A stretch of 23,921 nucleotides of DNA, taken from positions 1-23,921 of the IMG/VR virus record IMGVR_UViG_3300009163_000181; one strand, 5' to 3'. Of the stretch, positions 1 through 19,527 are shown piece after piece. Position numbers and translations under genes: made by a program. Source of the stretch: a virus. Below the pieces are notes generated by a model that made no database searches, was not told the origin of the DNA, and was given only the letters and a program-made list of their open reading frames with translations. Position 1 is the first letter of the stretch, and every line of letters begins with the position of its first letter.

Positions 1-454
1 TCAAGCGCCAGTAGGTAATAGCGTTATAAACATCTGGCAGGTGGTTGGCATCAAACACTTGACGATAATGTCTGGATCGGGCTGGTTGATCTTTCCAGTC
101 TCTACAGCCTGTGCTTACCACAACATCACGATGACGCAACAGGTTCCACCAGTGATCAATGGGACTGGTGATCAACATGTCTGATTCCAATTTGATTGTT
201 TCACGGAATGGTGTGGCATCAAACACCTGCCAGTCGTTGGCATAGGGATTGTCTGTGTTGATGGCAAACGGAAATTCACGCACATGATCAAACAAGTGAT
301 CGGGCTCTAGGTTCTCATTGGTCAACAAACAGATTCTAGCATCCGGGTGCCAATACTTGATGGTCTTGGCCAGAGTCTCACTGCAATTCACGTAGTCTGT
401 GTTTTGAGTATTGGTCGCTACTATTAGATAGCCTTGTTCTTCAATGGGTTTCAA
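1..454 (-). CDS. Putative GT-A-like glycosyltransferase, 3' end outside window
   Basis: The frame is open from a TTG start at 454 to the left edge: 151 codons are visible and the end is missing. TTG is chosen because a TAA lies directly upstream in frame, no ATG is available before residue 93, and a GGAG Shine-Dalgarno (462-465) sits 7 nt before it. The gene overlaps the end of the 268-aa gene by 14 nt. The protein parallels that neighbour in order and spacing: GYLIVATNTQNTDYV near the N-terminus (compare GALIFAFNNEQTDYV), then KLESDMLIT at about 88-96 where the neighbour has LVLDADYVV, then LPDVYNAITYW near the cut. This is the outline of a GT-A nucleotide-sugar transferase. The metal-binding DxD is E90-S-D92 here, so substrate use or activity may differ. 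The paralogy is seen in the sequence; enzymatic function is inferred and the sugar and acceptor are unknown. Confidence 0.72.
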   Translation of the reverse strand, partial: MKPIEEQGYLIVATNTQNTDYVNCSETLAKTIKYWHPDARICLLTNENLEPDHLFDHVREFPFAINTDNPYANDWQVFDATPFRETIKLESDMLITSPIDHWWNLLRHRDVVVSTGCRDWKDQPARSRHYRQVFDANHLPDVYNAITYWRL

Positions 455-1247
455 TTATTTTCTCCAAATGCTGTTTGCCCATAGCATGAAAGTCTTGATT
501 TTTTATCATGGTCCAGCGTGGGCGTCGGTCTTGGTCCTGGTAATCTATTTTATAACAATCTTTGCTGATTCTGGTCACAGTATGCTCAGGGGTGACGCTG
601 GCCAGGGCCCAGGGTATTGATTTATACTCTAGTGTTTGTCCATTCACAATACCAAGTGCAATACTCAGTGCGTAATCATTGCGATAGGTCGAACTGGAGA
701 TCTTGTACAAATTTTTGTAGTGACGCCAGTTGTTCCGTATCATTTTCATACAATCAAATATCAATTCAGCATGGTCACCGCGTCTAAACATCATCACTGT
801 GGCCCATGACATGGGCATGTGATATTCACCGTATTCATTGAGGCCCGCAAAGTTGTCTTGCCCTGTGATATCATATGCATGAGCATGTGCCAAAAACTCT
901 TGACGGCTGTTTAATACTGCCTTTAACTGATCACTGGCCACAACATAATCAGCATCTAGTACTAGGGTTTGATCCCATGGAGATAGAGCGTAGGCATCAG
1001 TTCTACCTGCGTTGTGCCATGTAACAGTTGCCTGATAATCCGCAAACCAACGTGTTCCTCCTGCACTTGCCGTTGCCGGAATAACTTGATCGAATCCTGC
1101 GAGTCGCGAATCTTTTGGATTAATGTCTGTGACGATGGCAGTGGGAATGTTGAGCCACCTACGAATGTTTCTAGCACTCCACTCAGCCATAGCAACGTAG
1201 TCGGTTTGTTCATTGTTAAAAGCAAATATTAAGGCGCCCGTAGTCAT
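441..1247 (-). CDS. Putative GT-A-like glycosyltransferase (268 aa)
   Basis: The 268-aa protein has no signal peptide or membrane segment, so it is probably cytoplasmic. The N-terminus (GALIFAF, residues 4-10) looks like the first beta strand of a Rossmann-like fold. TLVLDADYVV at about 94-103 fits the GT-A pattern in which D98-A-D100 forms the DxD metal and nucleotide-sugar site. PMSWATVMMF further on resembles the segment after the acceptor loop, and the C-terminus is rich in basic and aromatic residues. The start ATG overlaps the preceding stop (ATGA, 1244-1247) and no good Shine-Dalgarno is visible, so translation is probably coupled. A related gene follows directly and overlaps the stop. 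Phage-encoded transferases next to fibre genes may modify virion proteins, DNA or host surface sugars; nothing here shows which. The fold-level call is moderately sure and the activity unproven. Confidence 0.7.
   Translation of the reverse strand: MTTGALIFAFNNEQTDYVAMAEWSARNIRRWLNIPTAIVTDINPKDSRLAGFDQVIPATASAGGTRWFADYQATVTWHNAGRTDAYALSPWDQTLVLDADYVVASDQLKAVLNSRQEFLAHAHAYDITGQDNFAGLNEYGEYHMPMSWATVMMFRRGDHAELIFDCMKMIRNNWRHYKNLYKISSSTYRNDYALSIALGIVNGQTLEYKSIPWALASVTPEHTVTRISKDCYKIDYQDQDRRPRWTMIKNQDFHAMGKQHLEKIIETH
462..465 (-). promoter_or_regulatory. Ribosome binding site for the TTG-started gene
   Basis: GGAG on the minus strand lies 7 nt before the TTG at 454. It falls inside the last codons of the 268-aa gene. 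It is the main reason for accepting a non-ATG start here. Confidence 0.6.
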
Positions 1248-2631: not shown

Positions 2632-4545
2632 TTAGTTCTTGATGGTCACAATTGCTTCAATTGTACTTGATTCTGGGGTGATCTTGTCAACCAGACTTCG
2701 TCCAATTACATTGAATGATGTGGCTTCTCCTGGCTGGGCCGCTCTGGCAATGCCTGCTCCTGCTGAAACCAATCTGTCACCTTTGTGTACAATGCCAACC
2801 ACTTTAACTGGGACACGTCCGGTCATTGCAACTGGAGGATGTGTGTCATTTTCGCCGGCACCACCATTCATCAAGTATGCCGCTCTAGTACTTATCACGC
2901 CAAGCACGTTTTCACTTAATTCTGTGAGCGATCTGGTAATTTCTGCTGTGCCGCCCAATTCAACCACTGTGCCTGCTTCTAGCACTTCATCTGCGGCAAA
3001 GCGTTCTGCAACGTCAGCGTAAAGTGCTGTGGTTGCCTGAGCAAATACTCTGTTAAAATAGGTGCTTGCTGAACCAATATTGCCAACACCGTTTGCGTTG
3101 TTGTTAACAATATTACCAGCACTCACGTTACCACTCACGTTGGCAGTTGTTCCTGTGTAAGTAACAGCATACATGTTATTGAAATATCCTGATGGACTAC
3201 CAATGTTGCCCACAGCATTTGTGCCGCCTTTGGCAATACTTTGCACGTTGGCCACGTTGGCAAATAAAGTGGTTGTGTCAATCACAACCACGTTTGAAGT
3301 TCCACCGATGTTGATTGTTGCGCTTCCGCCAGAACCGGTAAACTGTATGTTTGATGTTCCGTTTTCAACTTTGGTAGCACTGGCTGCGGCGCTGATTCCA
3401 GACAGTGTTGAACCATTACCATAGATATAATTACCAGTGATGTTGCCAGTGGCACTAATAACGCCAGTTACATATTCACCTGTGGTAGCAAATACTGCTA
3501 CGTTTGAAGTACCGTTAACGCTTACAGTTATGTTGGCGCCTGTAGAGGCAATGTTTACGTTTGAAGTACCGTTATTGATGTTGGCAACCGATGTAATAAT
3601 ACCCGACAGGAAATAACCGTTACCATTAATGTAGTTGCCAGTGATGTTACCGGTTGCTGAAATCAAGCCACCTGTTAAAATATTACCACCAGTGATGTTA
3701 CCGGTGGTATTAACATTACTACCAGCAGGGCTGATCACATTACCAATAAAGTTTGCACCAGTAACATTACCAGTTGCTGATACTTGACCAACAGTTAAAA
3801 TATTGCCACCGGTGATGTTGCCAGTTACATTTCCGTATCCACTGATGTTGGCGCCACTAGTGGTAAAGATGGCTCTAGTAGTGCCGCCTGTGGTCACGAC
3901 CAAGTTGCCAGAACTCACAAGATTACCGGCCATGTTGGTGCCAGTAGCATTGCTAAATGTTACACCTTTGTAGACTGTAGGGAATAAGGTTGAAACAGGT
4001 GCGGCAGCACTGAAGTCAGCATCGCTACTGAAAATAGCAACTCTTACGCTGTTAGAATAAAGCGTAGTGACGTAGTGTGGTGTAGCCGAAGTGTCATTGA
4101 TTGTTTCAGGAATAGCACCTGTTGTGCCTTGACTACTAGAGTAGGCTGGGCCAACCACAATAAAACTGCTGCCAGTATAAACTTTTACCTGCTGGTTTGT
4201 AGTGTCGTACCATAACTCGCCGGTAACTGGATTGGTTGGGGCCGATGAACTTGATGTAGAGAGGGCCAAAGGTTTCCATTGCGCGGTGCCCGGATACGCA
4301 GATCCATAACTATAGACTTTTAATAAGTTATTGGTACTATCCCACCAAAGTTGACCATTTAATGGAGAGGTCGGTGACGTGCTGTTGGAAAAATTTTCCA
4401 GCATTTGGATAAAGTTTTCGTCTAAGAATTCACCGTACCCAGCATAATTTTTACCCACCAAGGTCACGCTACTGCTTTGATTGTACGTGCCATCTGTTAT
4501 GGTAGCAAAAACATTGCCATTAGTAAGATTAATTGTATATGCCAT
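2632..4545 (-). CDS. Tail-fibre-like protein with repetitive shaft (637 aa)
   Basis: Three parts can be seen. Residues 1-125 form a head beginning INLTNGNVFATITDG, with KNYAGYGEFLDENF and two related turns (NGQLWWDSTNNLLKVY at about 62-77; TGELWYDTTNQQVKVY at about 106-121); this looks like the N-terminal domain of many marine-phage fibre proteins. Residues from about 210 to 500 are a low-complexity shaft of repeats such as SATGNITGNYI-NGNG and NGTSNV. From about 500 the composition changes to a charged C-terminal domain starting YADVAERFAADEVLEAGTVV, with VLGVIST, GRVPVKVVG and KGDRLVSAGAG. That C-terminal domain type caps phage fibres; self-cleavage as in some fibre chaperone domains is possible but no catalytic site is identified. 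The start has AGGT 7 nt upstream and an exact TATAAATA just before. Probable receptor-binding or fibre shaft protein. Confidence 0.8.
   Translation of the reverse strand: MAYTINLTNGNVFATITDGTYNQSSSVTLVGKNYAGYGEFLDENFIQMLENFSNSTSPTSPLNGQLWWDSTNNLLKVYSYGSAYPGTAQWKPLALSTSSSSAPTNPVTGELWYDTTNQQVKVYTGSSFIVVGPAYSSSQGTTGAIPETINDTSATPHYVTTLYSNSVRVAIFSSDADFSAAAPVSTLFPTVYKGVTFSNATGTNMAGNLVSSGNLVVTTGGTTRAIFTTSGANISGYGNVTGNITGGNILTVGQVSATGNVTGANFIGNVISPAGSNVNTTGNITGGNILTGGLISATGNITGNYINGNGYFLSGIITSVANINNGTSNVNIASTGANITVSVNGTSNVAVFATTGEYVTGVISATGNITGNYIYGNGSTLSGISAAASATKVENGTSNIQFTGSGGSATINIGGTSNVVVIDTTTLFANVANVQSIAKGGTNAVGNIGSPSGYFNNMYAVTYTGTTANVSGNVSAGNIVNNNANGVGNIGSASTYFNRVFAQATTALYADVAERFAADEVLEAGTVVELGGTAEITRSLTELSENVLGVISTRAAYLMNGGAGENDTHPPVAMTGRVPVKVVGIVHKGDRLVSAGAGIARAAQPGEATSFNVIGRSLVDKITPESSTIEAIVTIKN
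3420..3880 (-). repeat. Degenerate repeats coding the fibre shaft
   Basis: Related blocks recur in this stretch of the fibre gene. For example, plus-strand 'ccagtgatgttgccagtggc' near 3433 has close variants near 3638, 3692 and 3808, and 'gttaaaatattaccacc' near 3674 recurs near 3796. They code for ATGNITG-type peptide repeats (about residues 222-375). The copies are diverged, irregularly spaced and coding, so they are protein repeats and not a CRISPR array. Confidence 0.75.
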
Positions 4546-5337: not shown

Positions 5338-8300
5338 TTATAACCCGCGCAAGAACCTTGCGGCTTGGGTATTGGTATCTTGCAGTGCAATGCCGTTGCT
5401 GGCTGTGTTTACTCCTGGTGCGTACCAAGTGACTCCTTGACGTACCAAAATTGTAACTTCTGAGCCTGCGGCGGGTGCTATATCAAACTCCACCGCAAGT
5501 GGATCAAAGTCTGTTACAAACCAACGATAAGTGCTATCGGCAGTGGTATCGCTAATTGCGTACTGTCGTATTCCGCCAACATAGACTTCAATTGCATCAA
5601 CTTCAACTGTGGAGTCTGCAAAATCAGCAAATGCAATACTAGGTGCATAGAATATTGTGGTGCTGGCATCGCCCATACTAGAATCGCTTACAGTGTAATC
5701 CTGGAACTGTGTGGGTAACAAATTACCGCGGCCCATATCGTATACACTGGTCCCAGTGTTATGAGTTGCCGCTGCCGTGCCTGCTGTGCCACGTATGAGT
5801 CCCGAAATGGTGTTTGCTATAGTATCACGCTCACGATACATAATACGTTCGCCATCAATTGTGACTATACCAAAGATTCCAGCAGCCAGGTTTGGATCAC
5901 TCAAGGCCCATGCATCTGCAACATAAGCAATCTTTGCAGTACTTGACAAATCTTGTGCTAGTGTGGTAGTCGTAGCTTCGGTTATTCTATAGGTGGCTTG
6001 CACACCGCGCATGTCTTGAAATATGCGGAATGCCATTGCTTCGGGTACAATGCTGTTGGTAAATGCTTCAACAACCAAAACATCGCTAACTCCAATTACT
6101 CCGCTGGCCAGTATCAAGTAATCACCACTTACAGTATAATCCTGGCCCTCAAATAGTCTAGAACCGTTTAATGTAACCCAAAGTCTGCTGGCGCTGTTTA
6201 TGTTTCTTTCTAGATAGAAATTGTTTGTATATATTGTGTTTCCTGCAGAATAGTCAAAAGATCCTGGAGCATTGTTTGTAGTGTCAGGAGAATAGTTGGT
6301 TTCGTCGTACCCTTCTGCAACAGTTACACTTTCTGTAATTGGACCTTTAAACACCAAAGTCAATGGCCACAATTGAGAGGTATCATTCCAGGTAGTTACA
6401 GCGATTACTTGTCCCAAGGTTATTGTGGCTGAAATTTGCAATTGATTAGCAACAATTACGTAATCGGCAGCAGTACTTACAGCAATTAAAATTCTTGCAC
6501 CACTAGGAGGCGGCGTTGTAAATATCACCTGGCGGCCAGGAGTGTTACTGCCGGTCCAGGCCGTCACACTGTAGTTACCCGTAGTGGGACCAACACTTTG
6601 TGTTTGTAAAATATTATCGACCCACACCATGATGTCTGAAGGTGCATTGATAGTGGATTGACTGTATCCTCCGCGTTGTGGTAGCCCAAAACTCACACTA
6701 GAATCATCACCAATCCATTCAATACCTTCTGATGGTTGTAATCTCAATCCGTCGCGTGTGACCACAACATTGGCCGGATTGGTGCCTTGTACACTATTGG
6801 TCAAATAGATAATTCGATTAGACACAAGATCGCTATCGGCCACTTGATATTGCACCTGTGGTGTGCTCCACGAGTATAAAGTGCTTGCTTGTCCTGTTCC
6901 TGACCCAATTCCGGTGGCTGTAAAACTAACTCCCAGCGTGTTTGACACAGCACCAATAGCAGTCCAATTGGTTGTACCAATGTTAGTAATGGTATAGGAC
7001 TTGCCAATTACAAAGTAACCAGCATCAATTGTACATGTACCAAATACTACCATGGCAATGCCATCTGTAGAACCATAGTCAGTTCCAAAATCTACTAGAC
7101 TTTGTGAAGTTGGTACAAATTCAAACCAATATAATACATTGGTTATGTTTGTGCCAATTGGCACATCTTGTAATGCTCTGTAGTAATTGCCGCTGTTGTT
7201 GACAACATCTAGTTTGTTATAACTGTTTAATATACTCCAATCAGTACTAGCAACATAAGGACTCCAGGTAACGCTATCAACATTGGCACCATTTACAAAT
7301 ACTGCAATGCTGGTAATTTCTGTTGATCCTACTGGGATTACTACCGTTTCTCCAAGGTCGCTACCAATATAGTTGGCACGATACAATTGACTGCCACCAC
7401 CTAATTCAAACACATTGATTTGGAATTGATCACCAATATTAACTGCTGGCGCCTGTGTTATCAATGTAACTGTTTGATTGATCCAATCAACAGTATAATT
7501 TGTACCAGGTGCAAGATCGCTACCGGTGGTAATATTGCTGACCAACACCTGTATTGGGTGATCGGTTATTCCGGCCCAACTATATGCTGTTTCTATCACA
7601 GGATTATATGTATAACGAACACTGCTCCATTGGAATCCGTGTCCGTCCCTGTTCCAATCTGCACCAGGGCGTGTGTACACACGGAAATCAAGGGTGTCAA
7701 ATTCTGCACCGTTTACTAATTCTTCAGGAGCATGACCTTCATAAAGTCCTATAAACTCACCACCATCTACGTTAATATCTGTAGGCAAGTCTCCCAGTGT
7801 TGTGTCTGTAAACTCACTGGAATAATTGGTGTCTATAGTTAATGGATCGCGCAGGAAGTAATCACCATACACTTGTACTCCTGGGTAATCGACTCCGTCA
7901 ATCAACAACGGCAACTCAAGGCCAGGTTGGTTAACTCCTGGTACATAGTATCCCATGGTACGATCAACACCAGTTAATGTCCTAGCCGGTACTACGGTCC
8001 AGTCTTCAAGATTAAAATTAGGTCCAACAACTTCAGTTGAGTCAGAGGGTGTGGCCTGCCAGACACGATTTTCATAACGTACCAACGTGCCCGAAATGTA
8101 AGTACTATTTGGATTCCAGGTCAAAATATTACTGAAATACTGAAAACGGTCGTACTTGATCACTGTGCGGAAACTGCGCACAAGATCATTAGTCATTCTA
8201 GCATACGCACGGGCCGCGACGCCGTTGCCGCCATCAAAGGTAATTGTGGGAGTTTGGCTGTATCCCGATCCAGGGTTAGTAACATTTACGGCTACTACTC

Positions 8301-11300
8301 GACCCAAACTACTAATTACTGCCGTGGCTTCTGCTGGTTGTAATGCATCGCCTGTGATTATGACCACTGGTGGTTCAGTATATGCTGAGCCACCGTCAAT
8401 GATTTCTACACTGCTTAACACCAACAAATAATTGCTGTACCATTGATTGTATGGCCATGAGGACCATACTGAACTAGTCGCCGGCAAATCACTTTGTGTA
8501 TTGGTTCCAGAATTGAACGCAGTACCATGATCATATGGCAACAAGATTGGACTTGTAAATTTAGGTATTTCTAAAGAGGTATTATAATATGCTGGCAAAT
8601 CAAAGTCAGTTAGATCTCCAAAGAATTCATCGAATCCGTCGTACCTCAGATTGAATTCTCGCACACTAACATGGTATGGTTTAACCTCTTGAATATAGTC
8701 GCTAACAAATTCTTGATTGTCACGAACATAATTTTGATAAGGAATCAACTGACGAATTTTATGGTCTACGTCGATTAAACTGGTCTTGACCAACCACTCA
8801 GGTGCAGAAAATTCACTCAATACAAAATTAAATATCAATACCAAGGCTTTGTTACGTTGAATTGCTAAATCATCTATTAACAATTCTTCATTGATGGCTT
8901 GAATGATTTTTCTTGTTTCTATCACTGGTTCTTGATCAAAATATTGTGCATCAAATACCTCAACGTCAAATCCAAAACGTCCTATTGCATAATCCCAAAG
9001 ATCCGCAGAAAATTCAATGGTACCATCTTGTAATCCAACTCGTTCCCAACCTAGATCAGTTTTCAAATATATTTCAAATTTACCTTGTGCATTAGCAGTG
9101 ACTTTGACACTGCTACCAACAATCACACTAAGTGTAGACAATGCTGAGTATGTAGACACTTCGGCTACTACTTTGGTACTGGGGTTATAGCCTGGGAGAT
9201 ACCAGTTAATGTAACTCCAGTAGTCGGGGGTATTGTATCCTTGAACACGAGTTAACTTCAGCACTCTTGTGCCAGGAGTGATATCGCTTTCGACTACTGT
9301 ATAAACTGTCCATAAACCGCGTTGACTGCTGTCAGTAGTCACAAGATATTTGTAGCCCAATGGGATTGATCCACTTGGATTAGACCAGAATGGGGTTTGG
9401 AATCCTAATATTTCTAAATTAGCCACTTGCAGATTCCAATTGGTTACTGTGGTACCATTTACAATTTCAGTCTGTGGCGGAATTGGCTCATTGCTGTTGA
9501 GCAAAGTAAAACTTCTGCTTTCGCTAATAGGATATTGAGCCAATACTGCATTTACACGTTTTAGGTAATTTTTTAACGCCGTAAAACGATCCACAAACAT
9601 TGATTGGCGTGGACGGAACTGTACTCCGTAACGTTCTGCAGGGCTGAGATTAGGATCCGGCACTTTGTTACCAAATGTATCTACGCCACAGAAACTATCT
9701 TGTAACTTGCGATACAGACTATCGCTCAAGAAACCATCAGCACGGTCTTGTGGAATCAATTCATATTCAACGTGTACGTTGTCGTCAGTATATTCTCGAT
9801 CGTATTCAATACTGATAACAGTATCACTAGCAGAAATGTAATCGGCGCTGTTGTATAATGCAATTGTGCTGGCATTTATTGGAGCCATGTAAGGAATGCC
9901 ACTGGCTTTGGGGTCAGCGATATAAGATGCAACGGTACTTGCTGGTAATGTTTTGCCCAATTGAGTTGCCGTCACTGTGATGCCACGTACCCAGAAATAG
10001 TAATAGGTAGCGAATGTTCCATCTTGTGAAAGATTTGTATTAATAGTATAAGATACTGTGTTTAATGGCGTTCCTTCACCAGTATAAGATGCAGGAGGAG
10101 TTGTACTTTGTACCCATTGATACACATCAACTACGCTACCCGGGAATACTTGTGCCCAACGTCGACTGGCGTAAACAATTGAGTCCTGATTGGGATCAAT
10201 AAATCTTACCGTGCTAGTATCCCACCAGATTTCCCCCACATGGTTTGCAAACCATGTGGTGCCTTTAAGATTTGCAGGACCAGTATTGTATGCGGCAGGA
10301 TCTACTGCGCCAATGTAATCAATATTGGCACGAGATGCACCCAATATCTTGCCTTGGAGTGGGTTGATAAAGTCCAAGAACTCTGTTCGAGCACTTGTAA
10401 TTCTATCATACAAAAATACAGAATTTAACAATCGAATATCAACTGTGGGTTGTTGAATCTGTGCCACTGACCAAGCAGGTGAGTCTGAAGGATTTTCAAA
10501 CACAAACACGGCGCCAAAGTTTGCGTCACTGTCGCCAGCATCATTTTTGGGAGCACCTATCATTAACACACCAGAGGTGTAGTTTACTGCGGCTCCGAAA
10601 GTGTCGTATGATCTTATTTGATTGTTATTAATTTGTTGCCCAAATACAAATTTGCCAGGATTGGTTATAGTCAATGAACTGCTTGGCAAGTAATCGAATG
10701 TGTAAATTGCACCGCTTTGTACAATTACTGAGAAGAATGTAGTACTACCAGCATCAAATATTGTGGTGCCATCATCAAATATTGTTTCAAGATATATTGT
10801 ACCTTGTGGTGCACCAACAACCAAGTTCACTGCTGAGTCATTGATACTGATGGCGCTGCCAAATCCTGCATACTGTACAGGGTATGGGCTGGTGATTGTT
10901 TGTGTCCAAGCAAAGGTTTCAAATCCTAGATCAGCAAATGTCGTGCCTACTGAGCCCGGCGCTACTTGTACCTTGTTGAATGGTGCGGCAGCCGCAGAAT
11001 TCTTAACGCTGATTGTAAGGTATCCTGTGGTGCTGACTGTGGCCAACACGTTTGGCACTGCGGTATTAATTGCACTGGCTAAACTTGCCAGCGTTGCGGC
11101 AACCGGAACTACAACATCTATGTTGTTGATTCTGATTGTGTTGCCGGCTGTGAGTGTGGGGTTGGCCACTGTAGCAGTAATGGTACCATATATACGACTC
11201 TGATTTACAAAACGTTCAACCACACCACCTTTGAATATTTGTTGGCTGCTTTGTGGCTCACCCACATATAGACTACAATTATTAGCACAGATATCTACCG

Positions 11301-14300
11301 CTTGACCAAAGTTGCTAAACTCTGCGGACACATGTTGGTCAACTTCTTGTACTTGTTGGAATTGGTTGGTTTCAATTTCAACTATGTCACCAATTTGCAA
11401 ATTGCCAGAAATTACAACAGTGTCTCCAGACACCGTAAATGAATCAGTGGCATCAATTACGCTATTGGTTTGATTGATATAGAATTGATTATTAACAATC
11501 ACACTCACCGGTGCAGTTGGCGCACCACCTAATACTGTAAAACTTGTGCTAGTAGAATCTGTGCCACAAATAAATTTTTGTACATTACGATCAAACACAT
11601 AAACTGTGCCTGCTTGTACTTTGCCATCAATAGTGCGATCAGGTGTGCCAATCAATACTTGGCGACCATCTGTAGTACACGAAACAGAATGTCCAAATCT
11701 ATCTCCAGCGGTTAGGCCGCCTGTGACCATGCCCGAATCAATTGTATCTACATACTCAAAATATCCTTTGGCATTGACTACAATGATATCCGATAGACTG
11801 TAGGACCCAGTAAAGGTCACTGTGGTACCAGCAAACGTGTAATCAATATTGGGACGCAATAACACTTCATTTACTTTGATACTGAATGAGTAAATGTTTG
11901 TGGCAGTGAACAAACTGACTCTTCGACCGTCAGCGTTGACATCATTATTGAGATTGTATGTTGATGCAGTGTATGGAATTTGGAAACTGTTGTAACGTGC
12001 AAATTCAATTAGAGTTGGTGCTAGTGCAGTACCTGTCCCTGTCCCTGTACCAGTAGCAATAAATTCCACGCCTACTGTGTTTGAACTAGCGCCAATAGCA
12101 ACAAAGTCAGTGCTTCCCACACTTAGAATAGTGTATGTCTGACCAGACACAAAACTTCCTGCTGTGGCCACACCTGGATTGTTTGTCAAAGTAACGGTGC
12201 TAAAATCACTGCTAACTGTGTAATCAACATCAACTGTTTGTACTTGTCCATTCAAGGTCACTTTGATTTGATATTTACTATTGATTTGTATGGTATTATC
12301 AATACCAAAAGATTGTGTTGTTCCATCAGCAGTGGTTCTGATAAGTTGTTCTTGCCAATCAACATAACCATAGGCATGGACATTATTCAAGCCCGGGGCG
12401 CCGATGTACATCCAACGTTCATCAAGGCTCATGGCCACACTATAACCAAACTCACCAGCGCCTGGAGTGGTTGATGTAGTTGTGCCTGGTTGTGTGAGCA
12501 ACTGCCACTGGCCATATGGAATAGACCCAGGTACACCTAACACTGGGTCACGATAGATCACACAAGCATAGCCGTTATTAGCCTGGCTGCCTGGTCCTAA
12601 ACTGGCACTAGCCCCAGCCACTGCCCATGTTTGATTACCAAAATCCACAGCATTACCATAACCACGTACACCTGTACCATCTAGGGTTAAGATTGCATCG
12701 CCGGTTCCCAATGGGCTCACGGGTGTGTATTGGTCGCTGTATCCTTTAACATAAACATATACCGCACCTTTAGCAGTGCCACTGGCAAAACCATAACGTG
12801 GACTGCCCACCAAGGCAGCAAGTTTATTTCTAGCCTGTGTTACACTGGCACCATATTGTTCGTTGGCATCAAGTAATACTGGATTCAGTGCAATAATACT
12901 TGAAAATACATTGTTCTTTTGCAGTACTTCCCAAAGCCCGCTGCCGTTGTCGTCTACCCAAACTTTAGCACCAGGTAAAATATTCAAAGCATATGGCAAG
13001 GTATCAACATCACTGGCTTGAGCCACACGCATAGTTTGAAGTGTAAAACCAATGCCAGTTCCATTGGCTACTGAACGATTGCTAGTAAATGCAAATGCAA
13101 TGTTTACAGTGTCAAGAGACGGTACACTGAGCACTTGGTATACACCGTTTATTTCAGTATCAAAGAATTTGATAATCAATTTGTCGCCAACTGCCAGGCC
13201 ATGCTGATCGTTAAAAATCACACGGCTTGTACCATTTAAATTGTCACAAACGTGTTGGATCTGGCCAGGTACCGCTTGCGCACGATAGATCCCCCAGTCA
13301 TAATCATTAATTTTAGCAACCCAAATGCTTGTGCCTACTTCAATTTGATCTATGTTGGCTGCTAGGCTACTTGTATTTGTAATATCAAATACTGTGATGT
13401 CTGTGTCATTGAGACTGACATATCCTGCCGAAGGTAAACCAGTGTCTGTTGGTAATTCAGTTGTGGTAGGAAGAATCTCAGTGCTGGTAAGATTATAACT
13501 TGAGCGCCAGATATCTGTTAAGAAAATAGTTTGATCTGCTTCGCTCTGTTGTTGCGGTACTACAACTTGTACCAAACTAGGGTTGCTACTCAACAATGCA
13601 CGATTCAATCTTAATTCAAAGAAACTGCGGTTAGCATTGGCGCCATATACTGCACGTTGTACTGCCCAGTTTTCATAGATTGAGTAGTCAGCGGCTTCTT
13701 TGCCTAGGTTGGCTGCTTTGAAAAGATCTGCGGCCAATATAGTACCTTTGGTACCCAGAAATTGACGATATACGTTCACTTGACTCACGTCATCGAGATT
13801 TAGGGCTGCCAAATATTGTCGTGGTTTAAATCCAATTAATCCATAGGCCAATAAATCATTGTCAGTTTCAATGTTTGCGGTGTTGATGTTATAACTATTC
13901 ATCAACTGATCAGCCTTGTTGGCCAAGTTAGGCAACAATCCCAGATCAATTTGGTTATAGTTACTTTGCGCCCATGCATTAAAATTAAATTTTTCACTGG
14001 GTTGAACAATAGTAAGAGCCTGCCAATATACATTCTTGTATTTGACAATTTGTCCTTTGGGGTAAGTTTTTAATCCTGTCCATTCTTCCACGTTGTTTTG
14101 ATTCAAGACAAAACCAGGTGTATCTACACTTCCATTCCAGTCGCTAGTAGTTACTGCCACCAAGGTTAATCTACTTTGTCTTGCACCTGTGGTAGGATTG
14201 TAAATTAAATCGCCAAACACACTTTGATTGTCTAACACAATCATGTGTTCATAATTGGTAAATCGCAAATTCACATAACTGATAGTTTGTGTAGTAAGTG

Positions 14301-17300
14301 GTTGTATGGTAAAAGTGTTACCTAGTCGAATCACATTCAATGAACGTGTGGGCAATTCATTTGAGTTTTGGTCTAGCAGTAGATTTTCTGTTGTTTCCGT
14401 TACGATACCATCAACTACAGCGCCGGGACGAGTAACGGTGAGACCACCCGCCAATGGATTCAAATTGATAATGGCATTTGTACTCCAGCCTTGTTGACTC
14501 CAGTACAAAAATTCTGTAACCATTCTAGACCAATCTAATACATATCCATTGGCCGTGTCAGTAAATGTTAAACCTTGCTTTTCTAATAACTTGCCGTAAC
14601 TTAGCAAAAAATCACTTACCGCAGTTTCGTTAACAAACACAAATCCATACGGTACCTGGGTTACATTGTCAGAATAAAAAGTCGGCACACGTACTGTTAT
14701 TCCGCCTGCACTGTATTCTTGCAGTTTGCCTACTGCTTGACTTTGTAGTATTTCAAAGTATGGTTGTGATGTGCCGTATCCAAATACTGCATAGCCGCCG
14801 CCATCAACTTTTTGCACCGCCACACTACTATATTTGATCTGATCAAATGGCTGATTTTTGTACAATAAAATGTTGTAACTTTCATCAGGGATTGTCAACG
14901 TGGTGTTGGTACTGTTGGGACTAGACTTTTCAGTAATTAATTTAATATACTGTTTGTCCGAGTAACTGGCCATGCGATAGCATAGTCTAACATCTAGTGC
15001 GCCAAGGTCAGCGGTCAACAAGTCTGTTGAATTGATACCAGTTTGTCTATTATAATCCACAATCCAATTGATGTAACTGGCTTTGCTGACGCCATTACCA
15101 TATACTTCAATGCCGTTGGCATCTAGTCTATAGCGACCATTATAAAGATATTGATTGTAGTCTGTATCAAATTTATACAAATCTCTATCAGCAAATAAAG
15201 CAAAGAATTTTGCTGGACGAGTAACTGCCAACACATGCATTACTGAGAATGGGTACGCAGAACTGTTCCACCAAGATGCTTCAACTGGGCCACCATCGCC
15301 AATTGCCCAACTCTTTTGATATCTTGAACTGATGTTTTGATTGAACGGTACCCCACCTACCACACTGTTTTGCGGGCTCAATAATTCGCCTTCACTGCCT
15401 GTAGGAATTACTGAAGTTAACCCCGGTCTTGCATATTTAGGTTTATAATAAGGAACAATAGGGTCCGCTACAAGACCAGCGGCTAGGTCATCCCATAGTA
15501 CCAAATTGTCTGCGGTGTAAGGTGCTGGACCATAACGATCTTGCCACCAGGTGGGCTCGGTTGTGAGTCCTAACATCTCCCAAGGAGTATAACTGGGTTG
15601 TTGGGTATCGTAAAAATATCGATAGATGCCACGCCAGGCACCTAGTAAATTTTCATTATTAAGTTTGTTGGTAGTGTTGCTATAGTTCCATGTAAATTCA
15701 TTGGTAGCACTGAACGTTTGATTTTTATAATCTAGTTTGTTCCAGGCGCAATAACTCAACAAGTCTCCGGCAAATATATTATTAATTTCTGTAAAGGTGT
15801 ATCCTGTGTTGCGGAACTGGCCAGGCAACACATCTTCTACAGTGAGTGGCACTGGATTGCCGTCTTGTTTTATATTGCTATAAATTCTAGTTTCAAATTC
15901 CAACAACACCTGATCACGGATGTCTCCAAATACTGGAGTCTCACTGCCATCGTGTCCAATAATAAACTCGCCTGTGCCATTGCTGGTCACAAGGGTAGTA
16001 ATTTCAGGTTGCCAAGCAGGATACAACCCCATCTTGCTAGGGGTATTTGGTACAAAACTTCCGTAAGTGGCACTGTATTCATTGACGGTAACTGTATCCC
16101 CAATTTCAAGAGTTGCAGTAATTGTAATTCTTGGTCCATTGGTGGCCACAACATAATCTCGATCGCGAGTCAGAATTATATCGTTGATGTATACACAAAG
16201 TCCAAGATAGTTGGCTGAGGTGTAATTGTAAACTTGTACGGTATCAAAAGTATTGGTAGTAGTGAAGCTCACAGTATAGGTATTACTATAGGTAGTAACG
16301 CCTTGTGGGATCATGTCTCCCCAATAGAATGGCTGAGTGTCTAATTTTCCTAATGTAATATCTGCTATGGCCTGATCAAGAATAGTGGCTGTGGTTTTGA
16401 ATGCAATATTGTTTTGTGTCAATACTGCATCTAGCATTTGTGCTTTGAATTTAATATACTCACGGCTGTTGTACTGCAAGGATGCAAATATATTGTAATT
16501 AGGACTGCGCATGAAATAGCCGGCTAGAGTTAGCGGGCTACTTTGTTGTAAGATTTCTAATCCGTAAGGAATAATATTGCCAAGATCACGACTGTTGTTT
16601 GAGCCGTTGATAGGCCCAGTTAAGTCTATTAAGTTTTCACAAATGCTCTCATAATGAGTACGTATGGTACCCAGGGTAAATGCTGGACTGTTGGCATTGA
16701 GAGGATTGCTTTGTAGGTTGTTTGCTACCTGGTAAAATCCCACGCTACTAGTTTGGTCACTGAGTGCCAACACTTCAATAACGTCTGTGGGCAAATAAGT
16801 GTCAGTCAGTGTGATAATTGTGCCATCAGTACTGACAGTATAGGTATACATGCTGGGTTCAATAAACACACTGCCAATATAGATTTTGATCACAGGTACT
16901 GCAATTGATGTTTGCGAGTTCACTGCAATATCAAGTTTTAGTGGTTGTCCTGTGTAGGTAAATTTAAATTGTTGGTAAATTTGCTGTTCAACCACAGCAG
17001 TCTGCCAACCAATTAACTTGTTGTATTCAAGTCTAGTATAATATTCTCTGGCAGCGCCTGAACTGATAGGTGTAGTAGTACTAACATTATCTATAGTGTA
17101 TGTAAAAGTGTCAACATACAAATTGTTGTCAAACACAATATCACCAACGTTGTTGATGTTTAGATATTGCAATGGGAATTGCAATACTGGATCAAGGATG
17201 GTAGTATCGCCCACAGCATAACTGAATAGTTTTGATCCAGAAAAATCACTAGATTGATATTTTACTCGATTACCAAAACTCACACCATCCACGTCATATA

Positions 17301-19527
17301 CATTAAACAACGGTGCTTGCTGAACTGCTGTTTTTTGTTGTGCTTCGATCCAGGTATCACCATCAAACCAAAATGTTTTTCCAGCGTAAGTGTTACCATT
17401 GATACAAATTGTACATTCATCAAGTTGCACAGCACCGTCAGTGGCTTCGGTCAACACAATAATTGGTTGTGAGATTAATGGTGGCACAGTGTCTGGTGTT
17501 GCAAAACTCACCACATAGATTTTATCGCGTACATCTAAATCTATATCCGCGGCGAATATAACTCGAGAGCCTTCAACAAGCGTATATCCATCGGTAGTAT
17601 ACCCGGTAGAGCCTTCTACGTTTGAAAGTGCATCAGTTTCGGTGAAGTCAATGATATCAACTGGTGCTTTGCCTTGAGTGCCCATGTTCCACAAACGAAT
17701 ACCAGGACGGAACTGTATAATTGGGCGTTTGGCACGAAAATTATTGTCAAGATTTGTATTGGTATTGTTGTATTTGGCAGTGGCATTGAGTACACTAACA
17801 TGAAACCAACGATTACTTCTGGACCATGCATTTAAATCTTTACTGGCACGACTGATTGTTAGATAATCCAAATCTGTTGGTTCCACCGCAATAGTGCTGT
17901 CGTTATAATCAGTCACATAAGTTTCTGGTATGACAAAATCTTCAACTGGTAACAGTTCAATGGCAACACCTACACCACTTACATAATATTCATGATTGCT
18001 AATAGCAATTGAATTCATAGTACCTGTACCTGCTTGCAAAGTCACTGCTGGACCACCAGGTACGGCACTTACTGTAAACTTAATACCGTTGGCCGCAATT
18101 GATCTTACATAGTAAGTTGTCCCGGCTTCTAGGCCGCCCAGGGTTGGTGTTAAAAATACAACCTCTTGTCCCACATACAAATGCACAGCATCATAATAAG
18201 TGATATAATTTGTGCCTGCTTCTGTAGCGGTACATTGAAAACTGCTGGTACCTGATTTGTATCTAGCAGGGATCACATCGCCAGTAAATCTTACTTTAAG
18301 ACCATTGGAGAATGCCACACCATTAGGACTGGTATATGTTTGTCGACCAATGATAGTGTCAACATCAAGTACAGTACTGGCACCTGGCTCAATTAATACA
18401 ATTCGACCAAAAATTTCTGAATTTGTACCAGACTGATAATATAATGTATCTTGTACCGCGCTCAATAATGGAATACTACGAATAACTCCGGCTGAATCTT
18501 TGTACCATTGAGTACTGCCGTAAACTGTTCCGTAACTGGTGATCCACTTTTCCAGACTGTTGATGGTGGCCAACTCTGACAATTGCAAATAAATCACATC
18601 ATCGACTGTGACATAAACTATCTGATATTTTTGTGTGAGTGCAGGATTATTGATAAAGACCAACGTGCGATTGTTTAAATTGGTTGTTCCGTCAATGCCG
18701 CCGGTGGCAACAATAAACTCAAGCAAAGGTTGGCCATTGATGTCATTGTAGGCTAATTCGGTTACTAAATCAATAGTACCAATGCTGGTTAAGGTTTCAT
18801 AATAAAAACTTTGTGCTGTTTTGAGTGGCGCATTAAAAACTACTGTGCCAGATGTTTCTCCATTGTTAGTCACGCCATAAACATCTCTACTGCTGATGTT
18901 TGGTGTGGCAGGTATCGTGCCCGAAATACCAGGAGCGGACTGTATCCAAAATTCATCAGAGACTTGGAAAGTATAACTGCCGCCACGTATCAGTTCAATT
19001 GTGGGATTGCTGCCAATAACACCTGAAAAATTATAAGCATTGTTACTGGTTGTTACTATAAAATTATCAGTGGTGGCAATTCCAGTGGCCGCAACATCTA
19101 CTGCGTCAGGACCGCCGGGTACCCAATAATATTGACTAAAGTTTATGAATGTATCAAAATCAATAAACGGATCCCAAGTATAATATTCACTTGAGTAAAG
19201 TCTATCTGGACGGTTGCTATTGCCCCCTTGAAAACTTACTGCGTCATTTAAACCTGGATAGGTAATGGCATTTTTGATAGTATTAGTGTCTGGTACAAGA
19301 CTAATAACTGCTGGCTCAAGTTGATATTCGGCTCGAGTTTTTGTGGGTTCGACCACATATTTGTCGTTGGGGTTGACACCTGCGCCAACTGTGCGACCAA
19401 TGAAACCTTGCGTTTTTCTAAAGTTAGGTTCTTGGATCAATTGATCCAGTGTGGCGGCCAAAAATTGTTTGTTGGCATCGGTCTGAAAAATTTCAGGAAG
19501 AAAATCTACGCTACGTGTGTTTGCCAT
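5338..19527 (-). CDS. Giant mosaic virion protein (4,729 aa), at the gp7/gp8 position
   Basis: One uninterrupted frame of 14.2 kb. ATG at 19527 is chosen over an adjacent TTG (19530) because GGAG lies 7 nt before it and it shares one base with the gp6 stop (TGATG). Approximate order: head with FLPEIFQTDANKQFLAATLD (9-28) and QYYWVPGGPDAVDV (about 130); a YYVRSI module (430-505); repeated 'VNG...DYTV...GD.V' beta modules; a WWQDRYGPAPYTADNLVLW region (about 1310-1450); CBM5/12-like segment (about 1812); NDQHGLAVGDKLII (about 2100); FG-GAP-like propeller (about 2235-3020); WFANHVGEIWWD (about 3090); a helical region with IQEVKPYHVSVREF (about 3600); GSGYSQTP turns (about 3706-3778); two more CBM-like segments (about 3802 and 4094); GERIMYRERD with GLIRGT (about 4552); end ALQDTNTQAARFLRG. 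No similarity to T4 gp7 or gp8 is evident by eye. Probably an extended baseplate/fibre component; no catalytic site recognised. Confidence 0.8.
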   Translation of the reverse strand: MANTRSVDFLPEIFQTDANKQFLAATLDQLIQEPNFRKTQGFIGRTVGAGVNPNDKYVVEPTKTRAEYQLEPAVISLVPDTNTIKNAITYPGLNDAVSFQGGNSNRPDRLYSSEYYTWDPFIDFDTFINFSQYYWVPGGPDAVDVAATGIATTDNFIVTTSNNAYNFSGVIGSNPTIELIRGGSYTFQVSDEFWIQSAPGISGTIPATPNISSRDVYGVTNNGETSGTVVFNAPLKTAQSFYYETLTSIGTIDLVTELAYNDINGQPLLEFIVATGGIDGTTNLNNRTLVFINNPALTQKYQIVYVTVDDVIYLQLSELATINSLEKWITSYGTVYGSTQWYKDSAGVIRSIPLLSAVQDTLYYQSGTNSEIFGRIVLIEPGASTVLDVDTIIGRQTYTSPNGVAFSNGLKVRFTGDVIPARYKSGTSSFQCTATEAGTNYITYYDAVHLYVGQEVVFLTPTLGGLEAGTTYYVRSIAANGIKFTVSAVPGGPAVTLQAGTGTMNSIAISNHEYYVSGVGVAIELLPVEDFVIPETYVTDYNDSTIAVEPTDLDYLTISRASKDLNAWSRSNRWFHVSVLNATAKYNNTNTNLDNNFRAKRPIIQFRPGIRLWNMGTQGKAPVDIIDFTETDALSNVEGSTGYTTDGYTLVEGSRVIFAADIDLDVRDKIYVVSFATPDTVPPLISQPIIVLTEATDGAVQLDECTICINGNTYAGKTFWFDGDTWIEAQQKTAVQQAPLFNVYDVDGVSFGNRVKYQSSDFSGSKLFSYAVGDTTILDPVLQFPLQYLNINNVGDIVFDNNLYVDTFTYTIDNVSTTTPISSGAAREYYTRLEYNKLIGWQTAVVEQQIYQQFKFTYTGQPLKLDIAVNSQTSIAVPVIKIYIGSVFIEPSMYTYTVSTDGTIITLTDTYLPTDVIEVLALSDQTSSVGFYQVANNLQSNPLNANSPAFTLGTIRTHYESICENLIDLTGPINGSNNSRDLGNIIPYGLEILQQSSPLTLAGYFMRSPNYNIFASLQYNSREYIKFKAQMLDAVLTQNNIAFKTTATILDQAIADITLGKLDTQPFYWGDMIPQGVTTYSNTYTVSFTTTNTFDTVQVYNYTSANYLGLCVYINDIILTRDRDYVVATNGPRITITATLEIGDTVTVNEYSATYGSFVPNTPSKMGLYPAWQPEITTLVTSNGTGEFIIGHDGSETPVFGDIRDQVLLEFETRIYSNIKQDGNPVPLTVEDVLPGQFRNTGYTFTEINNIFAGDLLSYCAWNKLDYKNQTFSATNEFTWNYSNTTNKLNNENLLGAWRGIYRYFYDTQQPSYTPWEMLGLTTEPTWWQDRYGPAPYTADNLVLWDDLAAGLVADPIVPYYKPKYARPGLTSVIPTGSEGELLSPQNSVVGGVPFNQNISSRYQKSWAIGDGGPVEASWWNSSAYPFSVMHVLAVTRPAKFFALFADRDLYKFDTDYNQYLYNGRYRLDANGIEVYGNGVSKASYINWIVDYNRQTGINSTDLLTADLGALDVRLCYRMASYSDKQYIKLITEKSSPNSTNTTLTIPDESYNILLYKNQPFDQIKYSSVAVQKVDGGGYAVFGYGTSQPYFEILQSQAVGKLQEYSAGGITVRVPTFYSDNVTQVPYGFVFVNETAVSDFLLSYGKLLEKQGLTFTDTANGYVLDWSRMVTEFLYWSQQGWSTNAIINLNPLAGGLTVTRPGAVVDGIVTETTENLLLDQNSNELPTRSLNVIRLGNTFTIQPLTTQTISYVNLRFTNYEHMIVLDNQSVFGDLIYNPTTGARQSRLTLVAVTTSDWNGSVDTPGFVLNQNNVEEWTGLKTYPKGQIVKYKNVYWQALTIVQPSEKFNFNAWAQSNYNQIDLGLLPNLANKADQLMNSYNINTANIETDNDLLAYGLIGFKPRQYLAALNLDDVSQVNVYRQFLGTKGTILAADLFKAANLGKEAADYSIYENWAVQRAVYGANANRSFFELRLNRALLSSNPSLVQVVVPQQQSEADQTIFLTDIWRSSYNLTSTEILPTTTELPTDTGLPSAGYVSLNDTDITVFDITNTSSLAANIDQIEVGTSIWVAKINDYDWGIYRAQAVPGQIQHVCDNLNGTSRVIFNDQHGLAVGDKLIIKFFDTEINGVYQVLSVPSLDTVNIAFAFTSNRSVANGTGIGFTLQTMRVAQASDVDTLPYALNILPGAKVWVDDNGSGLWEVLQKNNVFSSIIALNPVLLDANEQYGASVTQARNKLAALVGSPRYGFASGTAKGAVYVYVKGYSDQYTPVSPLGTGDAILTLDGTGVRGYGNAVDFGNQTWAVAGASASLGPGSQANNGYACVIYRDPVLGVPGSIPYGQWQLLTQPGTTTSTTPGAGEFGYSVAMSLDERWMYIGAPGLNNVHAYGYVDWQEQLIRTTADGTTQSFGIDNTIQINSKYQIKVTLNGQVQTVDVDYTVSSDFSTVTLTNNPGVATAGSFVSGQTYTILSVGSTDFVAIGASSNTVGVEFIATGTGTGTGTALAPTLIEFARYNSFQIPYTASTYNLNNDVNADGRRVSLFTATNIYSFSIKVNEVLLRPNIDYTFAGTTVTFTGSYSLSDIIVVNAKGYFEYVDTIDSGMVTGGLTAGDRFGHSVSCTTDGRQVLIGTPDRTIDGKVQAGTVYVFDRNVQKFICGTDSTSTSFTVLGGAPTAPVSVIVNNQFYINQTNSVIDATDSFTVSGDTVVISGNLQIGDIVEIETNQFQQVQEVDQHVSAEFSNFGQAVDICANNCSLYVGEPQSSQQIFKGGVVERFVNQSRIYGTITATVANPTLTAGNTIRINNIDVVVPVAATLASLASAINTAVPNVLATVSTTGYLTISVKNSAAAAPFNKVQVAPGSVGTTFADLGFETFAWTQTITSPYPVQYAGFGSAISINDSAVNLVVGAPQGTIYLETIFDDGTTIFDAGSTTFFSVIVQSGAIYTFDYLPSSSLTITNPGKFVFGQQINNNQIRSYDTFGAAVNYTSGVLMIGAPKNDAGDSDANFGAVFVFENPSDSPAWSVAQIQQPTVDIRLLNSVFLYDRITSARTEFLDFINPLQGKILGASRANIDYIGAVDPAAYNTGPANLKGTTWFANHVGEIWWDTSTVRFIDPNQDSIVYASRRWAQVFPGSVVDVYQWVQSTTPPASYTGEGTPLNTVSYTINTNLSQDGTFATYYYFWVRGITVTATQLGKTLPASTVASYIADPKASGIPYMAPINASTIALYNSADYISASDTVISIEYDREYTDDNVHVEYELIPQDRADGFLSDSLYRKLQDSFCGVDTFGNKVPDPNLSPAERYGVQFRPRQSMFVDRFTALKNYLKRVNAVLAQYPISESRSFTLLNSNEPIPPQTEIVNGTTVTNWNLQVANLEILGFQTPFWSNPSGSIPLGYKYLVTTDSSQRGLWTVYTVVESDITPGTRVLKLTRVQGYNTPDYWSYINWYLPGYNPSTKVVAEVSTYSALSTLSVIVGSSVKVTANAQGKFEIYLKTDLGWERVGLQDGTIEFSADLWDYAIGRFGFDVEVFDAQYFDQEPVIETRKIIQAINEELLIDDLAIQRNKALVLIFNFVLSEFSAPEWLVKTSLIDVDHKIRQLIPYQNYVRDNQEFVSDYIQEVKPYHVSVREFNLRYDGFDEFFGDLTDFDLPAYYNTSLEIPKFTSPILLPYDHGTAFNSGTNTQSDLPATSSVWSSWPYNQWYSNYLLVLSSVEIIDGGSAYTEPPVVIITGDALQPAEATAVISSLGRVVAVNVTNPGSGYSQTPTITFDGGNGVAARAYARMTNDLVRSFRTVIKYDRFQYFSNILTWNPNSTYISGTLVRYENRVWQATPSDSTEVVGPNFNLEDWTVVPARTLTGVDRTMGYYVPGVNQPGLELPLLIDGVDYPGVQVYGDYFLRDPLTIDTNYSSEFTDTTLGDLPTDINVDGGEFIGLYEGHAPEELVNGAEFDTLDFRVYTRPGADWNRDGHGFQWSSVRYTYNPVIETAYSWAGITDHPIQVLVSNITTGSDLAPGTNYTVDWINQTVTLITQAPAVNIGDQFQINVFELGGGSQLYRANYIGSDLGETVVIPVGSTEITSIAVFVNGANVDSVTWSPYVASTDWSILNSYNKLDVVNNSGNYYRALQDVPIGTNITNVLYWFEFVPTSQSLVDFGTDYGSTDGIAMVVFGTCTIDAGYFVIGKSYTITNIGTTNWTAIGAVSNTLGVSFTATGIGSGTGQASTLYSWSTPQVQYQVADSDLVSNRIIYLTNSVQGTNPANVVVTRDGLRLQPSEGIEWIGDDSSVSFGLPQRGGYSQSTINAPSDIMVWVDNILQTQSVGPTTGNYSVTAWTGSNTPGRQVIFTTPPPSGARILIAVSTAADYVIVANQLQISATITLGQVIAVTTWNDTSQLWPLTLVFKGPITESVTVAEGYDETNYSPDTTNNAPGSFDYSAGNTIYTNNFYLERNINSASRLWVTLNGSRLFEGQDYTVSGDYLILASGVIGVSDVLVVEAFTNSIVPEAMAFRIFQDMRGVQATYRITEATTTTLAQDLSSTAKIAYVADAWALSDPNLAAGIFGIVTIDGERIMYRERDTIANTISGLIRGTAGTAAATHNTGTSVYDMGRGNLLPTQFQDYTVSDSSMGDASTTIFYAPSIAFADFADSTVEVDAIEVYVGGIRQYAISDTTADSTYRWFVTDFDPLAVEFDIAPAAGSEVTILVRQGVTWYAPGVNTASNGIALQDTNTQAARFLRGL
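6883..7005 (-). repeat. Duplicated Thr/Gly-rich module, copy 2 (C-terminal)
   Basis: Codes for a module of about 41 residues beginning GKSYTITNIGTTNWTAIGA and ending ATGIGSGTGQAS (about residues 4175-4215 of the giant protein). It matches the copy at 12025-12144 position by position in most places: Y-T-I, I/V-G-T/S-T, A-I-G-A, S-N-T, G-V, F, A-T-G, G-T-G. Nucleotide identity is lower than protein similarity, so the duplication is old or the modules were gained separately. Confidence 0.75.
10236..10259. repeat. Perfect 24-bp palindrome inside the giant gene
   Basis: Arm CCACATGGTTTG is followed directly by its exact reverse complement CAAACCATGTGG with no spacer. On the minus strand it codes for part of the TWFANHVGE stretch. 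Perfect dyads of 12-bp arms are rare by chance in 24 kb, but codon constraint on this protein segment may explain it. Confidence 0.9.
10480..12830 (-). other. FG-GAP-like beta-propeller region of the giant protein
   Basis: Seven blade-like units recur in the translated minus strand: YGFASGTAKGAVYVY (about 12780), YGNAVDFGNQTWAVAG (about 12650), FGYSVAMSLDERWMYIGAP (about 12420), FGHSVSCTTDGRQVLIGTP (about 11680), FGQAVDICANNCSLYVGEP (about 11290), FGSAISINDSAVNLVVGAP (about 10840) and FGAAVNYTSGVLMIGAP (about 10580). The shared pattern is FG.AV, about 8-10 residues, a hydrophobic strand ending in GAP-type residues, then Gly and an aromatic strand such as GAVFVF. This is the FG-GAP signature of integrin-alpha-like propellers. 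Long insertions separate several blades. Confidence 0.65.
12025..12144 (-). repeat. Duplicated Thr/Gly-rich module, copy 1 (N-terminal)
   Basis: Codes for GQTYTILSVGSTDFVAIGA followed by a short link and ATGTGTGTGTA (about residues 2462-2501 of the giant protein), the partner of the module at 6883-7005. Its Gly-Thr tail comes from a short tandem DNA repeat (plus strand 'cctgtccctgtccctgtacc' near 12041). It is inserted between putative propeller blades 3 and 4. Confidence 0.75.

Follow-up and report, generated by a model that had tools for sequence, protein, structure and literature searches.

A conserved pair of overlapping GT-A-fold, GT8-like glycosyltransferase candidates beside the fibre genes of uncultured jumbo-type phages

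The stretch of DNA analysed here (the window) is an entire virus record of 23,921 bases, and carries two adjacent genes, here called A and B, whose products resemble glycosyltransferases and differ in the acidic motif expected to bind metal. The question raised by this locus is whether both products are enzymes or whether B is a diverged partner of A, and what the pair would act on.

The gene pair and its surroundings

The main genes of the window all lie on the minus strand, in the order baseplate set, 4730-aa giant, 201-aa protein, fibre-like proteins of 637 and 335 aa, 107-aa protein, A and B. By comparison with PHROGs and relatives, the baseplate set is T4-like and includes a gp25-like and a gp6-like wedge protein, and the jumbo phages Phosso, Atu_ph07 and PA5oct, among others, encode the closest named relatives of the latter, with about 34% identity. 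The giant is encoded by a single open frame (5338-19530) located between the gp6-like and the fibre genes, and its positional counterpart in Atu_ph07 is a 13.3-kb 'virion structural protein' gene. The 637-aa fibre-like virion protein (2632-4545) was assigned by phrog_6427 and the virion structural family phrog_14394; the 335-aa fibre-like protein (1612-2619) had neither a Pfam nor a PHROG match. The original prediction had placed A and B next to fibre genes, which is correct except that the 107-aa gene (1244-1567) intervenes. This gene overlaps A by 4 nt; Pfam had nothing for it at E 1, and PHROGs a single weak match at E 0.053.

Gene A (441-1247) is complete and encodes 268 aa, and B (2-454) was translated for its first 151 aa, up to the contig end. 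As A ends at 441 and the TTG start of B occupies 452-454, the genes overlap by 14 nt, as had been predicted, and an SD-like GGAG (462-465) precedes the TTG within the end of A. The TTG start was retained in 113 of 117 plus-strand distinct pairs, and GGAG, GAGG or AGGA was present shortly before it in 111 of 114 TTG cases, window included; as this site sits within the coding sequence of A, part of its conservation may stem from A. Orthologues supplied the 3' part of B that the window lacks, and in them B is intact, i.e. not broken, at a full length of 241-270 aa; the orthologue at locus L039, 92% identical to the 151 aa of the window, was used as its representative.

Relatives were collected in single-sequence scans (37 loci for A, best 80 of 340 for B) and in separate profile scans of IMG/VR, in which 397 A-like and 565 B-like stretches were confirmed, and the best 80 of each kept. 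The best-80 selections for the B single-sequence scan and for both profile scans make the sample lean to close relatives, and the sets from the two kinds of scan overlap in contigs. For co-occurrence, 182 sources were used (the window and 181 loci, leaving out L119, and also L001, which duplicates the window stretch), containing 118 distinct A and B pairs, 113 of them full enough for distances. Exactly one A and one B were found in 178/182 sources, and in the other four (L028, L034, L135, L174) the sequence stops either inside A or no more than about 140 bases beyond it. Both genes were likewise present in 80/80 loci from a later B profile search, many of which repeat earlier contigs. Over ten whole records, the B profile had further matches solely at neighbouring A genes, and none in one record (G008).

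A recurrent gene order emerged from the window and 117 loci: the giant, the 201-aa gene, two fibre genes, the 107-aa gene, A, B and genes of about 120 and about 310 aa. Its families were present in 106 to 118 of these 118 sources (107 for the 107-aa family), and the family of about 120 aa in 94; part of the misses is due to contig ends. Outside this group, tblastn of A gave no match in 50,697 phage records, and tblastn of B gave a weak match in four ACG-2014f records and nothing else in the same set. In genome_contigs (84,980 bacterial and archaeal species, one genome each), the two scans yielded 19 and 30 pattern matches and no confirmed relative in either, and a cellular origin can therefore not be named.

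Homology, predicted fold and family placement

The common layout that had been noticed in the two proteins is borne out as distant homology. Compared as single sequences, A and B share a thin match (BLASTP, 28 aa, E 5e-05); compared as profiles of 74 A and 73 B relatives, they align over 185 columns with a probability of 98.9 and an E-value of 1.2e-17, with the D-A-D of A set on the E-S-D of B. By this measure, A and B are distant homologues and paralogous.

Models were obtained with AF2 for A (74 aligned relatives, pLDDT 93.9) and for the B orthologue L039 (73 relatives, pLDDT 89.9) and compared with solved structures by Foldseek and VIA-align. At E<=0.001, 206 PDB matches were found for A and 307 for the B orthologue, those listed being nearly all GT-A enzymes. 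The best solved match was glycogenin 3t7n_A for both, with Z 16.3, 3.4 Å and 200 aligned residues for A, and Z 15.3, 3.9 Å and 195 aligned residues for the B orthologue, followed closely by LgtC (Z 14.2 and 13.5, respectively); TM-scores were modest, at 0.32-0.56 in the listed rows. Both models are thus predicted to have the GT-A fold, the outcome that had been anticipated. The nearest solved structures of both are GT8 enzymes, and other GT-A enzymes (4ayj/4ayl, UGGT) lie within Z 3 of the top, so that GT8 is not singled out.

By sequence, neither A nor B could be assigned to a family with a known function in searches of Pfam, NCBIfam, PHROGs and the PDB. Across the 74 A and 73 B members, Pfam gave nothing convincing, and the GT8 profile PF01501 did not match any of them at E<=0.1; the PDB sequence search had no match for either protein. 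The sole clear family for B is phrog_1903 (L039 B, E 7.6e-10), to which no function is assigned. Matches to SSURE, Phage_portal and TIGR00482 were far under the cut-off and were taken as chance. Independently of the pair, PF01501 exceeded its cut-off in a separate gene far from A and B in 6/10 phage records (L097, L113, L053, L138, L159, L038), and it also matched in 6/14 controls.

The comparison with glycogenin and LgtC (CAZy GT8; 3t7n, 1g9r) illustrates this placement. Like these enzymes, A and B show the GT-A fold across nearly their whole length, with a central strand that ends in an acidic motif and a C-terminal His followed by a Lys, whereas identity is only about 12% and the GT8 profile matches neither protein. 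GT8 enzymes carry the C-terminal motif HxxGxxKPW; A has H-A-M-G-K and B has H-Y-x-x-K in its place, with a His-to-Lys spacing of 4, and B in addition has ExD. On the models, A and B appear to operate as GT8 enzymes do, though they are not filed as GT8 members.

Conservation of the acidic motifs

The motifs named in the original prediction, D98-A-D100 in A (948-956) and E90-S-D92 in B (179-187), were confirmed by translation. At the end of the central strand, where GT-A enzymes have DxD, D98 and D100 are invariant in 84/84 distinct A proteins; with the loci of the later B profile search, a loose pattern that takes the first D.D fitting the frame printed three A motifs as DSD or DFD. B does not have a strict DxD at this place but an ExD, with E90 and D92 invariant in 83/83 distinct proteins and the residue between them A in 79 and S in 4. 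A C-terminal His is equally fixed, as H254 in 74/74 A (486-488 in the window), a putative third metal ligand by analogy with GT8 enzymes, and as H251 in 72/72 ungapped of 73 B. The Lys four residues further on is present in 74/74 A and 68/73 B, and D191 of A and D186 of B in 74/74 and in 72/72 ungapped of 73, respectively.

Median dN/dS was 0.113 for A (183 pairs) and 0.087 for B (152 pairs), indicating that both genes are under purifying selection. The mean amino acid distance was 0.433 for A and 0.379 for B, with B lower in 5005/6328 comparisons, and the putative active site of B is among its most conserved parts. Given the invariant motif and C-terminal His, a dN/dS of about 0.1 and the slower change than in A, B is judged not to be a decaying copy, and a reading of B as a gene under relaxed constraint was rejected on the same grounds.

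These data also bear on the possibility that B is a pseudo-glycosyltransferase that merely binds A and supports or regulates it, as plant IRX9 would in xylan synthesis. B is paired with a canonical DxD paralogue and itself departs from DxD, and IRX9, whose DxD is not conserved, is reported to be mainly structural (PMC4132061). In the same text, however, IRX9 has lost the acids (GLN), whereas B retains an acid at both motif positions in 83/83 proteins, keeps its C-terminal His in all 72 ungapped sequences and evolves more slowly than A; the active-site residues of B are thus neither lost nor unconstrained, as those of an IRX9-like protein would be. We therefore consider a purely supporting role of B unlikely. 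Of the two options held open originally, that the proteins act together or that B is a diverged or regulatory partner, the first agrees with the co-occurrence of the genes, and a merely diverged, non-catalytic B is at odds with its conserved putative active site and slower evolution.

An ExD has precedents: DxD may vary to ExD in GT-A enzymes according to PMC4132061, and PMC5836110 names EXD among the modified motifs of GT-C enzymes. The weak relative of B in Synechococcus phage ACG-2014f (hypothetical protein AIX31285.1; tblastn over 94% of the 151 aa, 26% identity, E 0.6) is near full length and sits among annotated glycosyltransferases (GT11, GT6, GT25), but has a canonical D-A-D, unlike B, and different neighbours. 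This single weak relative suggests, and does not prove, that the E in the motif of B is a derived state. As a further likeness, an ACG-2014f protein matches A by fold (BFVD E 1.6e-8).

Acceptor and downstream genes

As the best explanation of these data, we propose that A and B are two active GT-A, GT8-like glycosyltransferases used together, with the fibres as their likeliest acceptor, and put the probability of this reading as a whole at roughly 55%. Homology, predicted fold, motif invariance, linkage, purifying selection and position are its established parts. The hosts of the pair would be uncultured jumbo-type myophages, in which A and B are translationally overlapped. Each enzyme would bind a nucleotide sugar via a divalent metal, coordinated by the invariant C-terminal His and by an acidic motif that reads D-A-D in A and E-[A/S]-D in B, and then transfer the sugar; the D-to-E exchange in B would be a fixed, conservative variant of DxD and leave the enzyme active. 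Since every sequence of sufficient length has both A and B, they would most likely act on one glycan, either successively or as a complex. Sugar nucleotidylyltransferases (PF00483) were not found in 9 phage records, so the donors would need to be host-derived.

The likeliest acceptor would be a late phage product of the same region, namely the Ser/Thr-rich fibre proteins encoded just upstream. Ser and Thr together make up 30.7% of the 335-aa and 23.4% of the 637-aa protein, against 12.0-18.1% in gp25, gp6 and the giant; high Ser and Thr content is common in fibres, and composition and position are weak evidence for either protein as acceptor. A parallel is offered by mycobacteriophages such as Maravista, which reportedly carry two putative glycosyltransferase genes for which capsid glycosylation has been proposed (PMC11256854). 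As with A and B, two phage glycosyltransferase genes are there joined to a suggested virion acceptor, which in those other phages is the capsid.

The genes downstream of the pair call for a second reading of its role. In five stretches (L184-L188, whose records measure 320-353 kb), the operon headed by the pair runs on into radical SAM genes and a carbamoyltransferase-type family, identified as PF02543/PF16861 in a Pfam run with one member; five twitch-type radical SAM genes share matching CxxxCxxC signatures in the same order across the stretches. The twitch radical SAM family NF033640 had 4 to 21 matches per record, weaker ones included, and was above cut-off in 10/10 records, while 14 control genomes gave matches below cut-off only. 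A same-strand radical SAM gene lies downstream of B in 82/90 distinct-A loci with at least 5 kb of sequence, and none is within reach in the other eight (L029, L130, L136, L150, L166, L168, L179, L183).

In one of the five stretches, a gene on the opposite strand beyond the carbamoyltransferase (L187:262-1284) encodes a 341-aa protein that reads as amidinotransferase-like and has no Pfam match; its family is present in 4/5 stretches. The gene of about 308 aa that comes second after B has a DGDN motif in 72/75 distinct members; hhalign showed homology with neither A nor B (probability 7.8 and 0.4), and it was dismissed as a third paralogue. The assignment of the FRTEK protein as GT10-like was also dropped: F.TEK is present in just 46/75 members, there was no PDB match, and PF00852 matched neither here nor in the controls.

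In Atu_ph07 and Phosso, the baseplate and 201-aa genes are homologous to those of the window and radical SAM genes follow soon after the fibre gene, but A and B were not found there by tblastn, and their profiles did not match in ten Atu_ph07 proteins of that region. Adjoining the radical SAM genes, shortly after the fibre gene, both phages encode a hypothetical protein (L189:9119-10009, gp170 of Atu_ph07; L190:12415-13335 of Phosso) with a shared CHxSCHASCHxSRSRR tail, for which only these phages were matched. This tail is a possible substrate of radical SAM modification.

With these neighbours, the pair may instead belong, together with the radical SAM and carbamoyltransferase genes, to a biosynthetic pathway yielding a small molecule, a glycan or a host-surface modification, and not glycosylate fibres. 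The series of radical SAM genes and the PF02543/PF16861 gene behind the pair in all five stretches, the presence of radical SAM genes in most loci and the opposite-strand amidinotransferase-like gene in four stretches speak for this; the fixed position of the pair itself beside the fibre genes and the eight loci without a radical SAM gene within reach speak against it. We regard such a pathway as possible, though not as the favoured explanation. Far more improbable is that A and B glycosylate hypermodified phage DNA. DNA modification is common in jumbo phages, and its pathways can include radical SAM and carbamoyltransferase genes, but A and B are located among virion genes, and their predicted fold is GT-A and GT8-like, whereas the T4 DNA glucosyltransferases are GT-B. 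Tet_JBP, of the hydroxylated-base pathway, was matched in 0/9 records, and likewise in none of the controls.

Fibre glycosylation and the downstream genes could also be parts of one process. In this rather doubtful extension, the glycosyltransferase pair would catalyse the first step encoded by a dedicated operon for modifying virions or glycans, shared by a large clade of uncultured jumbo phages; glycosylation, several twitch radical SAM reactions in succession and carbamoylation would together yield an elaborate, undescribed decoration of the adhesins. Neither PMC11002830 nor PMC5332604, in the portions covered, describes this operon; the 12 radical SAM genes of an environmental, T4-like genome (PMC5332604) show that radical-SAM-rich phages are already known.

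A and B represent a widespread, glycosyltransferase-like phage family without a Pfam or NCBIfam match, of which PHROGs lists B alone and without a function. The fixed ExD paralogue next to an invariant DxD partner offers a clean test of how far the metal motif of GT-A enzymes can vary. The downstream radical SAM and carbamoyltransferase genes widen the range of possible functions of the pair, and its position by fibre and radical SAM genes makes the modification of phage adhesins directly testable.
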